From Planctopirus ephydatiae (GTDB taxonomy: Bacteria > Planctomycetota > Planctomycetia > Planctomycetales > Planctomycetaceae): a stretch of 64,000 nucleotides of DNA. Shown in pieces: positions 6,678 to 11,201 of the stretch (the stretch's first letter is position 1; each line of letters starts with the position of its first letter). Below the pieces are notes generated by a model. That model did no database searches and had not been told where the DNA came from. It saw only the letters and a list, made by a program, of their open reading frames with translations. The position numbers and the translations under genes are program-made. The DNA is taken from positions 1,178,001 through 1,242,000 of the forward strand of contig NZ_CP036299.1 of the NCBI RefSeq assembly GCF_007752345.1. The letters run 5' to 3'.

Positions 6678-9600
6678 TTAATTGGCCAGTCGATACTTCT
6701 TCAACTTGCTGAAATATGTACTTCGTGGCAAGCCCAACATTCGAGCCGCCTCGGCCTTATTCCCCTGGCACTGTTCGAGGGCCTTCATCAGTAACTGTCG
6801 TTCTTCCGATTCGGTCATGTCACTGGCAAAACGTCCAGTTTCGTTCGATGCAGCTTCCCAGACGTTTTCGTTCACAGAAAGTGACTTGGGAAGTGGCTTG
6901 CGGCCCCGCCCTTTCGAACGCCTTGCGGAACTCTTCTCATGGCCGGTCGTCGCATGAGGTTTGGAATCTGGACGATCTGTTGTCGTCTTTGTGGAGTTGG
7001 TGAAAGGTTTTCCTGAGGAAGAATCTGGTACAGAAACGGGCGATGAATCCAATGGGGCCACATGGTGTACAGCCACCTGCTTCTCGGACGCAGCGACAAT
7101 TTCTGCACCGCTGACACTTTCGACCACCAGAGGTTGCAGGGCACTTTCCGTGCGGCGAATCGCCGATGTTTCCAGTCGACGCAGTGCAGGAGGTAAATCT
7201 GCCAGAGTGACAGTGTTCGACTCAGACAGGACGACAGCTCGTTCAATCACGTTCTCAAGCTCGCGAATGTTGCCTGGCCATTGGTAGGCCAATAATGCAG
7301 CGAGTGCACTTTCGTCGATGCGAAAGACGCGCTTCCCCGTTTTGTTGGCGGCTTGTTTGAGAAAATGCCGGAAGAGTTCGTACAGATCGTCTTTGCGTTC
7401 GCGCAAGGCAGGCAAGGCAATATGGACGACATTCAATCGATAATACAAGTCCTCCCGGAAGCGACTGTCTCGAATCGCCTGTTCAAGATTTTTGTGGGTT
7501 GCTGCCACCACGCGAACATCGCAGCGTAAGGTCTCACTGCTCCCCACTCGTTCAAAAGTTCGCTGCTGTAAAACGCGAAGCAATTTGACTTGCGTTTCGA
7601 GAGGAATTTCCCCGATTTCATCCAGGAAGAGTGTTCCTCCATTGGCCAGTTCAAATCGACCGGGCTTATCCGCATAAGCGCCAGTAAATGATCCTTTCAC
7701 ATGGCCAAACAATTCGCTCTCTAAAAGTCCTGTAGAAAGTGCAGCGCAGTGGACAATGACCAGAGGACCATCGCGACGCGGACTGTTGGCATGGATCGCC
7801 TGTGCCAGTAGTTCTTTGCCAGTACCACTCTCTCCAGTAATCAGAACTGAAGAATCGCTGGCAGCGGCTTTGCGAACGACTTCGAGCACTTCCATCAGTG
7901 CCTGGCTGGAACCACGAATCATGCCGCGATCGAACTCGGTGGCTGGTTTCGGGCTTTCTGGTTCCTGAGATTCGTTGATTTCGGCCTGCAGCATGAGGAT
8001 CTGCTGCTTCTGCTGTTCGATTCGATCAACTTTCAAACGAAGTTCTTCGTTGAGTCGACTGAGATCTTTATGCACCTTGGCACAATGGAGTGCCACGCCG
8101 GTGATCTGACCCATCGCGGTCAGAAACGTGATGTCCTCTGCGGAGTAAACGCCATTGGTTTGCCGCGGCCCCAGAACAACGAAGCCGGAAAGTTCTCCTT
8201 CAACTTCGAGGGCATGAATCAGTTCGGCCTGGAGATCGCGCAAAAACGACTGCACCGGATTCATACTGTCGCGCGAAGCCGCCGGGACAGCCTGGAGTGT
8301 GGTCGCTGCCGCCAAGGTCATCACAAAATCAGCTGATGTCGAAATCTGCATCGAGACGTTGGGCCACACGCCTTCGGCGGCAATCAAACGGAAGTTTGTG
8401 CTGCGGCCTTCCCGCAGATAGATCGCAGCGCGTTCGGCCTGTATCACATCCTGACAAGAACCTGCCATGCGCTGTGCTAACGATTCGGCATCCGCCAGTT
8501 GTCCGACGGCTCGATTCATCCGTTGCAGTACTTTATCGAGCTGATACTTCTCGCGGAAAAATCTTCGATCAACCAGCCTTTGCCAGACATCCCGTGCCCA
8601 GAGAAACATGCCGACAGTCACGACGAGAATTGCCGCGACGACCACAAGTTGAGGGGACGTTAACTGCTCTCGCCAGGAGACTGCTGCCACAGCCGTCATC
8701 GCAATGGCAATTGAGACCACCAGAGTGGTGCCAAAGCTCAAGACGTAGTAGAGCATCCCACGACTGACCACCTGATCGACCAGCATCAGTTTGAAACGAC
8801 TGATGCCGACAGCATACGCCAGCATGAAAACCAGACTGGCAAAAAACATTGGCCAGCGGCCGCCACCTAAGGCAAAATCAGCCCGCGAGACACCCGCCAG
8901 CAGAAGCGTATAGCCAATGAGAAGTGTCGCAATCAGACCGGCCCAGAGAATCCATTTGACCTGATTTCGTTCAACCGGATTGCGCGTTGTCCAGAAACCG
9001 TGCACCAATGCCGCAATAATCCCGGCGAAGTAAAACGCCGCAATCGAAACGTAGATGTAGACCCCATTTTTCAGGGCCACGAGCCAGCCAAACATCTGTA
9101 AGGCACGGGCTTCCACAGAAATTCCCGTAGTCGCCATCAACCACCAGATCGACCATTCGGCCAGCAGAAATAGCACCAGAGCCGCGATGGGGATGGCATA
9201 AATCCCGACCAGCGTCTCAAACGAATAGCGGTCAATGGGTGGTTTCGGTCGTGGATAGATAAGAAAGAAGTGAAACGTCACGACAGGCACCATGATGGCT
9301 GTGATCGCAAATGGCAGATTGAGCCAGGGGTTTCCTGCAATCACCCACCAGTGAAAACCGCCCACGAATGCAGAGATCGTGACCAGGCACATTGAGAAAA
9401 AGAGTTGAGCAGGGTGGTCGAAAGGCCGCCGCCAGAAGGCGATGGCGCTCACAGAAAAGATCGCAAGCTGAAAGAGAAACCAGACCAGAGTGAGCCCAAT
9501 CTCATCCAGCGGGACACCCTGAACAGCCAATGAGGCAACATAGACCTTGTCATCCTCAGGACGATAAAACTCGATTTCCACCCAGCGAGGCCCGCCTTCT

Positions 9601-9974
9601 TCCTGAACCAGCTTGGGTAATTGCTGCTCTAAAGGATCCCCACCCGCCAGCATTCGCCCACCTGGAGGAGTGGGGGCTGTTCGCAACCAGTCCATATAGC
9701 GGAAGAAATCGAGCGAGGTCCCAAGTCTCTGCTCACCAATCCGGAGAAGTTCATCGCCTGGTTGAGGCCTGGGCCCCTTGAACTCAATTCCAGGGGTCTT
9801 GCGAATAATGATTGATGTCAACTTGCCAGGTTGCAGAGGTTTGTCGACCAGCAGACAACGCAGTCTTACATCAGGTGCCGTGGCCACATAGACGAGAGTG
9901 ATCATGCAGTAGACAAGAGAGCAACCTCCCAAAGCTGCCAGCACCGGCCGCACCCATCGCCTGGCAGCACTCAT
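6678..9974 (-). CDS. membrane-bound sigma-54 activator: PDZ-like, multi-TM, GAF, AAA+, Fis HTH
   Basis: A 1098-residue bacterial enhancer-binding protein with an unusual sensory half. Order: one N-terminal TM helix; an extracytoplasmic PDZ-like domain (about 30-150, with PQPGDELLRIGEQ); eight or so TM helices (about 155-460); GAF domain (about 480-640); coiled coil (about 645-672); AAA+ sigma-54 domain (about 690-930) with Walker A GESGTGKE, loop GSFTGA and Walker B TLFLDEIGEIP; a 120-residue low-complexity linker with basic KGRGRKPLPK; and a Fis-type helix-turn-helix at the end (NKAEAARMLGLPRSTYFSKL). The family remodels sigma-54 holoenzyme using ATP. GSFTGA differs from canonical GAFTGA at one position. 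Most such activators are soluble; this one probably senses an envelope signal. It is divergent from a sigma-54-type promoter. Confidence 0.9.
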   Translation of the reverse strand: MSAARRWVRPVLAALGGCSLVYCMITLVYVATAPDVRLRCLLVDKPLQPGKLTSIIIRKTPGIEFKGPRPQPGDELLRIGEQRLGTSLDFFRYMDWLRTAPTPPGGRMLAGGDPLEQQLPKLVQEEGGPRWVEIEFYRPEDDKVYVASLAVQGVPLDEIGLTLVWFLFQLAIFSVSAIAFWRRPFDHPAQLFFSMCLVTISAFVGGFHWWVIAGNPWLNLPFAITAIMVPVVTFHFFLIYPRPKPPIDRYSFETLVGIYAIPIAALVLFLLAEWSIWWLMATTGISVEARALQMFGWLVALKNGVYIYVSIAAFYFAGIIAALVHGFWTTRNPVERNQVKWILWAGLIATLLIGYTLLLAGVSRADFALGGGRWPMFFASLVFMLAYAVGISRFKLMLVDQVVSRGMLYYVLSFGTTLVVSIAIAMTAVAAVSWREQLTSPQLVVVAAILVVTVGMFLWARDVWQRLVDRRFFREKYQLDKVLQRMNRAVGQLADAESLAQRMAGSCQDVIQAERAAIYLREGRSTNFRLIAAEGVWPNVSMQISTSADFVMTLAAATTLQAVPAASRDSMNPVQSFLRDLQAELIHALEVEGELSGFVVLGPRQTNGVYSAEDITFLTAMGQITGVALHCAKVHKDLSRLNEELRLKVDRIEQQKQQILMLQAEINESQEPESPKPATEFDRGMIRGSSQALMEVLEVVRKAAASDSSVLITGESGTGKELLAQAIHANSPRRDGPLVIVHCAALSTGLLESELFGHVKGSFTGAYADKPGRFELANGGTLFLDEIGEIPLETQVKLLRVLQQRTFERVGSSETLRCDVRVVAATHKNLEQAIRDSRFREDLYYRLNVVHIALPALRERKDDLYELFRHFLKQAANKTGKRVFRIDESALAALLAYQWPGNIRELENVIERAVVLSESNTVTLADLPPALRRLETSAIRRTESALQPLVVESVSGAEIVAASEKQVAVHHVAPLDSSPVSVPDSSSGKPFTNSTKTTTDRPDSKPHATTGHEKSSARRSKGRGRKPLPKSLSVNENVWEAASNETGRFASDMTESEERQLLMKALEQCQGNKAEAARMLGLPRSTYFSKLKKYRLAN

Positions 9975-10021
9975 TTTGCCCTCTCGTGACTATAGTGACA
10001 GATGGCGGAGCCAAGGAACTC

Positions 10022-10148
10022 AGCGCCGAATCGTAGAAACTAATCTATCCTCAGCGGCGCCGATTGCAATTGAAACGAACCCGCCAAGCGCCGAAATCAC
10101 AAATTAGCCAGTGCAATCAATAAGTCGTCAGCATGAATCGGCGCCGAT
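10022..10148 (+). repeat. four GCGCCGA direct repeats, putative activator binding sites
   Basis: GCGCCGA followed by A or T occurs at 10023, 10057, 10088 and 10141, always on the same strand, with spacings of 34, 31 and 53 bases, close to whole helical turns. The last copy sits in a perfect 12-bp palindrome ATCGGCGCCGAT (10137-10148) and the second in CGGCGCCG (10055-10062). The array lies just upstream of the activator gene start (9974) and about 110-235 bases upstream of the sigma-54-type promoter, a classic enhancer distance. Binding by the adjacent Fis-type activator is inferred. Confidence 0.5.
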
Positions 10149-10256
10149 GTTGACTTTTGCAAATTTATCAGATCAGACACAAATCCAATAATGGTAGTAA
10201 TTTGAGTTCTTTGATAGGCCATTTCAGAATGCGTTTCTGCTGAAGTCGAAAGAATG

Positions 10257-10272
10257 CGGTACAGTGGTTGCA
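10257..10272 (+). promoter_or_regulatory. sigma-54-type -24/-12 promoter
   Basis: CGGTACAGTGGTTGCA has the invariant GG (10258-10259) and GC (10270-10271) with exactly ten bases between, and a full TTGCA -12 box. The -24 box matches TGGCACG at four of seven positions. Predicted start of transcription is near 10283, just before the structured RNA. It faces away from the sigma-54 activator gene. Confidence 0.5.
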
Positions 10273-10282
10273 CTGTGTTGTA

Positions 10283-10462
10283 TCATCGACGAAAAGTCGA
10301 CTTCCTTTACCCCAGCCGCCCCTGGAGAATTGTCAGTCTCATCAAGATCCGTGCGTTCCCGATTCACTGAAAAGCGACCCAACCCACAAGTTTTTCAGCT
10401 ATCTTTCTTGAACACACCACGCGGACTTGTGAGAACTGTCTCCAGGGGCTTTTTCGTTTTTT
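10283..10462 (+). ncRNA. predicted structured small RNA, unnamed
   Basis: Starting at the predicted sigma-54 start site, a 5' hairpin TCGAC-GAAAA-GTCGA (10286-10300) is followed by a long bulged stem. Pairings: 10318-10328 with 10439-10449 (11 perfect pairs), 10334-10337 with 10435-10438, 10338-10341 with 10430-10433, 10343-10346 with 10426-10429, 10348-10351 with 10422-10425, plus two more. Inside, CTGAAAA (10367-10373) pairs with TTTTCAG (10392-10398). The stem is followed by T-runs at 10450-10454 and 10457-10462, as in an intrinsic terminator. No open frame here has a credible protein. It does not show the SRP, tmRNA or RNase P signature motifs. Could alternatively be a maf leader, but the T-tract 110 bases before maf argues for a separate transcript. 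Confidence 0.5.
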
Positions 10463-10574
10463 GATTTCTCTGACTCAGCCCTTTTGATGAGGAATGCCAG
10501 ATCAGTTGGCCATTCGTCTCGGGGCCAGACTTCTCAGGGCTAATCGTCTTCGAGCCAATTTTTATAGGGGCTGT

Positions 10575-11201
10575 GTGGTGCGTTGGATTCTTGGTAGCAG
10601 GTCGCCCAGACGTCTCGAACTGTTGAAGTCGTTTGACCCTCAAGGTGACATTCGCAGAGTTCCCCCACGCTCTTCCGATGAGATGGAATTCGAAGGACTT
10701 CATCACTGGGATGAGATTGTTGAGCGTTCACTGTTGATTGCTCAAACCAAATATGAAGATGTCTGGGAACAGGTAGCTCAGGAGAATCTGGAAAACACAC
10801 TGATTCTTTGCGGTGACACGACCGTACTCTGCGAAACAGAGCCTGGTTCCTGGTTGGCGATTGGACAACCCCCGGTGGATGACCCGCAGCATCAGGTCCT
10901 TCGAAACTGGCTGGGTCAATTTCTCGCCAACCGTACTCATCGCGTGCTCAGCTCTTGTGTACTAAGATTGACTTCCGGCGAATTACGGCAAGGTTCCATT
11001 GTGACGAACGTCACTTTCCGCCCCGATGTCGAACAATGGCTCGACTGGTATGTTTCGCTCAACGAATCTTCCGGGAGGGCGGGTGGCTACGCGATTCAAG
11101 GTGTCGGAAGTATCTTTGTGGATAAAATCGAAGGCAGTCTCAGCAACGTCATTGGGCTGCCGCTCGAACTGATTGCCGAATGGACAGCCTGCCGCCGGTA
11201 A
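10575..11201 (+). CDS. maf: Maf family nucleotide pyrophosphatase
   Basis: A Maf/YhdE-type protein of about 208 residues. The family hydrolyses non-canonical or m-type nucleoside triphosphates to monophosphates and has been linked to septum formation. Visible motifs are WILGSRSPRRLELL at the N-terminus, ILCGDTTVLC with the catalytic Asp, SSGRAGGYAIQGVG, and EGSLSNVIGLPLE near the end. The start is chosen at the GTG pair at 10575/10578 because AGGGG lies 5-8 bases upstream and the family motif begins at once; an ATG at 10494 would add a poor 27-residue extension. The last 22 bases overlap the dihydrouridine synthase frame, suggesting an operon. The sequence is more divergent than typical Maf in the middle. 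Confidence 0.85.
   Translation: MVRWILGSRSPRRLELLKSFDPQGDIRRVPPRSSDEMEFEGLHHWDEIVERSLLIAQTKYEDVWEQVAQENLENTLILCGDTTVLCETEPGSWLAIGQPPVDDPQHQVLRNWLGQFLANRTHRVLSSCVLRLTSGELRQGSIVTNVTFRPDVEQWLDWYVSLNESSGRAGGYAIQGVGSIFVDKIEGSLSNVIGLPLELIAEWTACRR

Follow-up and report, generated by a model that had tools for sequence, protein, structure and literature searches.

The 64,000-nucleotide stretch of the Planctopirus ephydatiae genome analysed here (the window) contains, with good confidence, a free-standing gene for a non-coding regulatory RNA of ~170–180 bases, driven by a bacterial enhancer-binding protein (bEBP) and sigma-54 and bearing ACCCA motifs as its working surface. The case is built on sequence comparison; transcription, contact between the bEBP and its palindromes, the signal, the direction of regulation, and the targets are inferred. 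Within these bounds, the gene is a conserved one carried by most sequenced members of the order and encodes a small RNA previously unnamed there; in other orders of the class, the bEBP usually faces an enzyme gene. The comparison supports conservation of structure, promoter, palindromes, and bEBP linkage, in hosts for which no Hfq was found. An earlier note, made from the letters of the window alone, had inferred an undescribed, probably sigma-54-dependent planctomycete sRNA of ~170 bases, a reading now supported, though transcription remains unproven, by compensatory changes, a conserved sigma-54 promoter, a conserved terminator, and the lack of an Rfam match. Since a likely activator, operator sites, a promoter, and a terminator have been located along with this order-wide sRNA, experiments in a culturable genus can begin immediately. 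The features of the locus are as follows.

6678–9974, minus strand: transmembrane one-component bEBP, the likely activator, with sigma-54 AAA+, Fis-type HTH, and GAF-like fold
10019–10032, no strand assigned: palindrome-type site 1, core CAGCGCCG, likely bEBP site (no binding data)
10052–10065, no strand assigned: palindrome-type site 2, core CGGCGCCG
10086–10099, no strand assigned: degenerate or half site AAGCGCCGAAATCA (repeat D3)
10136–10149, no strand assigned: palindrome-type site 3, AATCGGCGCCGATG, 134–147 nt before the predicted start
10257–10272, plus strand: sigma-54 promoter CGGTACAGTGGTTGCA, with GG at 10258–10259, N10, and GC at 10270–10271
10283–10462, plus strand: small RNA gene, start inferred from the -12 element and end from the terminator
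10286–10300, plus strand: 5' hairpin, not a family-wide part
10309–10317, plus strand: unpaired leader ACCCCAGCC (family consensus ACCCAGCC)
10318–10328, plus strand: closing stem P1, 5' arm GCCCCTGGAGA
10367–10398, plus strand: apical hairpin, arms CTGAAAAGC (10367–10375) and GTTTTTCAG (10390–10398)
10376–10389, plus strand: apical loop GACCCAACCCACAA, with two ACCCA motifs
10439–10449, plus strand: closing stem P1, 3' arm TCTCCAGGGGC
10450–10462, plus strand: T-run of the intrinsic terminator, a T-rich tail

The architecture described in the earlier note is borne out. The 5' hairpin, the perfect 11-bp long-range stem (P1), the bulged helices that continue inside it, the internal CTGAAAA/TTTTCAG hairpin, and the T-runs directly after the stem are all present where the earlier note had placed them; its figure of about 29 pairs over 132 bases is exact for the end-to-end span but omits part of the pairing, as the MFE fold contains 49 pairs, of which the rod accounts for 44. 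The plus strand folds at -60.9 kcal/mol, compared with -37.3 ± 3.9 kcal/mol for 200 dinucleotide shuffles, none of which reaches as low (z = -6.0). The minus strand of the locus also beats its own shuffles (z = -4.5), and the plus strand is favoured by its T-run, sigma-54 promoter, and unpaired motifs. P1 doubles as the terminator of the rod. The four closest genomes all allow a 5' hairpin to be drawn; it is not considered family-wide, because the distance between promoter and leader varies greatly among genera.

At the sequence level, the RNA is recovered in only four of 59 genomes, its own included. Two of these (G001 and G002) are 95–97% identical over a 211-base query and ~85% identical, with gaps, over the surrounding 421 bases, and the RNA is thus better kept than its flanks. 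The third relative, G003, is 80% identical, with both partners altered but pairing retained at four of its 53 pairs, and with four other pairs of the Planctopirus-type structure lost. The four closest genomes are identical throughout the leader and the apical loop and in parts of the internal loop. A covariance model built from four sequences of the source genus alone (R1) gives 12 matches outside the genus at E ≤ 1 in 170 family genomes, of which only G026 (E = 3.4e-4) and G030 (E = 0.23) are full length. Both adjoin an orthologue of the bEBP, although position was not used in the search, and the bEBP-upstream region was therefore read in 50 family genomes. The other ten R1 matches span 44–58 bases and were set aside; the two that were aligned (L029 and L030) match little beyond the closing stem. 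Most of the 50 regions display a common order of bEBP gene, palindromes, sigma-54 promoter, leader of type ACCCAGCC, rod, and T-run, the rod comprising a stem of type GACCCTCGG / CCGAGGGT and an apical hairpin of type CTGATTGCAG-CCTGACCCACT-CTGCAATCAG, with the T-run following the 3' arm.

Models built on this broader base reach most of the order. R2, from 20 genera, matches 127 of 170 family genomes at E ≤ 0.1, and R3, from 99 RNAs, matches 141 of 170 genomes of the order and 53 of 58 genera at E ≤ 0.01, including genomes outside its training set (for example, G006, G032, and G071–G074, with E from 5.5e-8 to 8.2e-5). The order search covers the same number of genomes as the family search, and all of its listed rows belong to family f1. 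R3 finds no match in 29 of the 170 genomes, most of which were not viewed singly; in genus g8 (G010 and G066), the bEBP is present and no RNA is recognised by R3, as is also seen in G022 and G008. A sigma-54-like site and another strong rod are present in G010. Outside the family, R2 yields weak matches in nine genomes of a 297-genome sample of the class (best E = 6e-4; six of the nine shorter than 100 bases), and the match in G330 is unconvincing on inspection. The RNA usually occurs as a single copy per genome. An apparent second copy in G003 (L005) proves by eye to share only a similar terminator, situated behind a tRNA-like gene. Separately, G035 (C58:3580-3869, L055) harbours two tandem RNA copies behind one sigma-54 promoter.

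Compensatory change in the stem among relatives, which the earlier note had named as one test of its proposal, is found. Alignment A7 holds 99 RNAs from 98 of 100 loci (98 distinct rows). Its cells are paired in 84.5% of cases versus 70.3 ± 0.6% after shuffling, and 388 cells have both sides changed versus 131 shuffled, with double changes in 20 of 21 pairs. The covariation score is 0.478, compared with 0.234 for shuffles and 0.08–0.17 for controls with slid partners. These counts lean towards the structure, because A7 was fitted to the structure of R2, itself named by hand, and because its rows are related; the R2 structure was set by hand from single-sequence folds since RNAalifold, applied to a MAFFT alignment (A6), recovered only five pairs. 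Unconstrained single folds of the 99 RNAs have a mean z of -5.6, with z < -2 in 96, and at least seven pairs join the two end regions in every one. A rod with a single hairpin loop appears in 54 of these folds, and the remainder have side hairpins. The 10 nt 3' of P1 contain a median of six T residues across the 99 RNAs, and open reading frames inside them (median 14 amino acids) do not exceed those of mononucleotide shuffles (median 18) in length. As a separate observation, the motif TGCGC directly follows the terminator T-run in 49 of the 99 RNAs (for example, L071, L061, and L053, though not in the stretch analysed here), compared with 3 of 59 in a control region further on and none of 12 other terminator-like hairpins within these loci; its sequence is like one half of the palindrome assigned to the activator.

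The sigma-54 promoter and the CRGCGCYG palindromes between the bEBP and RNA genes had gone unreported in the earlier note. The -12 element ends 12 nt before position 10283, the start point chosen there, and the promoter thus places the predicted start at ~10283. Promoters were scored over 200 nt of upstream sequence against TGGCAC-N5-TTGCW (maximum 11), with GG and GC required in data and shuffles alike. A score of at least 9 is reached upstream of 90 of the 99 RNAs, against 1.15 expected from shuffles, meeting the expectation of a -24/-12 promoter at fitting distance that attaches to sigma-54-dependent sRNAs. Of the 98 rows with at least 350 nt of upstream sequence, 96 contain CRGCGCYG there, versus 4.5% of shuffles, and 75 contain at least two copies. 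Close relatives inflate both the promoter and the palindrome counts. The palindromes are likely sites of the activator, an assignment for which no binding data exist. A two-palindrome pattern search for other bEBP targets was uninformative, returning chance matches in GC-rich genomes and none in the source genome itself.

The gene divergent from the RNA encodes the likely activator. Pfam assigns PF00158, PF25601, and PF02954 to the bEBP, along with a weak GAF_3 match below cut-off, and its hydropathy profile displays ~10 hydrophobic segments, residues ~30–160 being likely periplasmic. By sequence, the sensor region has one marginal PDB match, to a cGMP phosphodiesterase. The GAF part gains support from modelling: an AlphaFold2 model of residues 1–650 has a mean pLDDT of 81, and the 50 Foldseek matches listed, from a total of 684, are mainly GAF-containing proteins. 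Orthologues are present in 58 of 61 family genomes, and 45 of these 58 have the RNA in divergent orientation to the bEBP gene, at a distance of 184–704 nt, in keeping with the sigma-54 activator that the earlier note had seen beside the RNA. Five more linked loci (G006, G029, G032, G073, and G074) were recognised by eye from the coordinates of R3 matches. The remaining eight comprise three in which both parts lie at contig ends (G034, G109, and G191), one with the parts on different contigs (G098), three in which no RNA was found (G008, G010, and G022), and G023, the single observed case in which RNA and bEBP look genuinely unlinked. There the RNA sits on a different contig (C267, L108) with palindromes and promoter beside it, and neither was found upstream of the bEBP, suggesting that these sites belong to the RNA promoter. 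From such arrangements, the RNA gene appears to be turned on by the divergent bEBP; this control has not been shown experimentally.

Outside the order, the regulator is retained with a different partner. The bEBP is detected at E ≤ 1e-90 in 76 of 118 genomes of the class, family members included, and at 17 of 20 loci outside the family a gene for an alpha/beta hydrolase lies divergent from it, in the place of the RNA. Pfam annotation covers three of these 17, one is the search query itself, and another, in G222, is a weak match at 29% identity. No hydrolase gene is found at 50 family loci, within flanks of up to ~1.8 kb. The stretch between the bEBP and hydrolase genes contains CRGCGCYG at 12 of the 17 loci; G039, G044, G222, G250, and G218 have none there. 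In the seven loci inspected, a sigma-54-like site scoring 7–9 precedes the hydrolase gene, weaker than that of the RNA. At L184, L186, L189, L190, L193, L194, and L197, palindromes often fall into two groups ~190–330 nt apart, as if at these hydrolase-type loci one group served the bEBP gene and the other the hydrolase gene. At two of the three remaining loci, in G252 (family f14) and G205 (f9), the bEBP adjoins a terminator-bearing rod RNA led by ACCCA, which R3 matches in a local search at E = 1.6e-4 and 0.017, respectively; the third, in G254, has neither hydrolase nor RNA. A whole-genome hydrolase search of 16 genomes gives strong matches in all five of hydrolase type and none at E 1e-15 in nine of the 11 of RNA type, the other two (G004 and G059) having weaker relatives.

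A quick-method tree of 36 bEBPs places the 18 RNA loci on one side of a branch with SH-aLRT support of 97; with G254 left out, a single change separates RNA from hydrolase. The direction of this change cannot be told because the tree has no root. We lean towards the view that one ancient module, consisting of the membrane bEBP, CGGCGCCG-type palindromes, and a divergent sigma-54 promoter, switched its output once between an alpha/beta hydrolase and a structured RNA, the RNA having replaced the enzyme, or the reverse, in the order and two outside families, and that this RNA founds an Hfq-free, order-wide sRNA class that works via unpaired ACCCA. Such a swap of enzyme gene and RNA gene under one regulator would be unusual, the promoter keeping its control as the product changes between protein and RNA.

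The proposed mechanism begins at the membrane, where the bEBP would sense a signal via its periplasmic, membrane, and GAF parts, bind the CRGCGCYG palindromes, and open the sigma-54 promoter at 10257–10272. Transcription is inferred to run from ~10283 to the T-run after the long-range stem, and with a stop at this point the finished RNA would be a rod whose closing stem is also the terminator. Its working surface would be the unpaired ACCCA of the 5' leader, the apical loop, and, in some species, the 3' internal loop. ACCCA is the most enriched 5-mer of the 99 RNAs (197 occurrences versus 30.0 expected, related rows counted singly), and on average 4.3 of its five bases are unpaired; two copies are present in 50 of the 99, one in 24, three or four in 23, and none in two. 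An Hfq profile matches none of 41 family genomes, compared with five of 14 controls. The pattern suggests a trans-acting RNA with C-rich pairing sites, and pairing of ACCCA with short G-rich stretches of mRNA around ribosome-binding sites, without Hfq, is narrowly preferred as its most likely action because of the enriched unpaired motif, the absence of a detected Hfq, and the analogy with IsrR of Staphylococcus; the targets themselves are inferred. Exact 12-nt complements of the consensus apical loop number 49 across 61 genomes, including 13 that are simply the RNA genes, compared with 135 for the reversed pattern, a control read backwards in which dinucleotides are unmatched. This search identified no target, and the absence of an excess disfavours one long conserved antisense target; shorter seeds are outside its scope.

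Ranked next after mRNA pairing, and doubtful at present, is the possibility that the RNA acts as a decoy, its repeated unpaired ACCCA titrating an RNA-binding protein by a logic like that of CsrB with another motif. The strong enrichment of one short unpaired motif, present in two to four copies in 73 of the 99 RNAs, would fit such a sponge, as would the lack of enriched loop complements in the genomes and of a detected Hfq. The copy number is low for this purpose, however, with a single ACCCA in 24 of the 99 and none in two, and no candidate protein is known. GGA is the word recognised by CsrA, and the repeated GGA in loops that marks CsrB and RsmZ is not met: ACCCA leads the 25 most enriched 5-mers and GGA is absent from them. 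Pairing with mRNA remains the preferred reading.

A much less probable reading treats the RNA as a 5' leader of maf that acts as a riboswitch or attenuator and is terminated at the closing stem. The gap between RNA and maf in the window is 31 nt if maf starts at ATG and 115 nt if it starts at the GTG considered likely, and maf is also downstream in G003. The maf open reading frame occupies 10494–11201; its start is probably the in-frame GTG at 10578, just before a conserved WILGSRSPRRLELL stretch that is alike in G003, and the ATG at 10494 lies 84 nt upstream. A leader calls for a constant, co-oriented downstream gene, and this is not met: at ten other loci, the downstream genes belong to ten different Pfam families, with four in the opposite orientation. 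These ten were added because a rougher proxy, the longest open frame downstream at 58 loci (30 with the RNA and 28 against), had picked the strand opposite to maf in G003. The constant neighbour is instead the divergent bEBP gene upstream, so the maf-upstream regions that the earlier note had suggested for comparison are not the lasting context of the RNA, and the maf-leader reading is rejected on the diversity of downstream genes. An element lacking its own promoter (a terminator or a repeat), or a hairpin formed by chance, would look alike in stem and T-run and could also account for a minus strand that folds better than its shuffles, but family-wide conservation, covariation, the sigma-54 promoter, and a mostly single copy per genome contradict it so fully that it merits next to no credence.

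Identity with 6S RNA, raised as an alternative in the earlier note on account of the long bulged rod and comparable also in size, is ruled out for practical purposes, since the source genome has its own 6S RNA elsewhere (G000:C1:1596531-1596729; RF00013, 53.8 bits, over cut-off), as do 25 of 41 family genomes over cut-off, and no Rfam family matches at the RNA locus. The earlier expectation of no known RNA family held in the Rfam scan that it had advised: none of 4227 families reaches its gathering score for the RNA of the window or the loci of 18 relatives, and the only match in the whole window is a tRNA. A relaxed scan of 10150–10560 produced two chance matches (E = 5 and 7), neither overlapping the RNA. 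A literature search for planctomycete sRNAs, restricted to open-access sources and partly to titles, found no such RNA named, and we know of no order-wide regulatory sRNA of Planctomycetales of the kind described.

Among known systems with similar features, the Qrr sRNAs of Vibrio are sigma-54-dependent, consist of several stem-loops, and are controlled by the NtrC-type activator LuxO. The likeness lies in the sigma-54 promoter and the linkage to a bEBP, seen for the planctomycete RNA by sequence only, with control by the bEBP inferred. The planctomycete RNA differs in forming one rod, in matching none of the Rfam families, Qrr included to the extent that Rfam covers it, in having a membrane activator with its own sensor part, and in the lack of Hfq matches in its host family, so that Hfq-dependent pairing of the Qrr kind is not met. 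GlmY and GlmZ of Enterobacteria share the feature of an sRNA with a sigma-54 promoter, as recorded for glmY in the portion of the source available (PMC3162934); their Rfam families are likewise not matched, and no resemblance in sequence or neighbourhood was noted. The Rhodopirellula-1 candidate motif is reported, in the accessible part of its description, from Planctomycetes and Proteobacteria (Weinberg 2010; PMC2864571), whereas the present RNA gave only weak matches outside its order; the alignments were not compared. No common ancestry is seen with IsrR of Staphylococcus, an established parallel in logic together with other C-rich sRNAs of Firmicutes. As far as the available text of the source describes it, IsrR has three C-rich regions predicted to be unpaired, two of them in loops and the third next to a stem at the 5' end, and acts on mRNAs independently of Hfq (PMC9410917). 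Both RNAs thus have C-rich sites in loops and where a 5' stem begins, but IsrR is Fur-regulated and has three stem-loops and a separate terminator, whereas the planctomycete RNA has a sigma-54 promoter and a closing stem that is itself the terminator.
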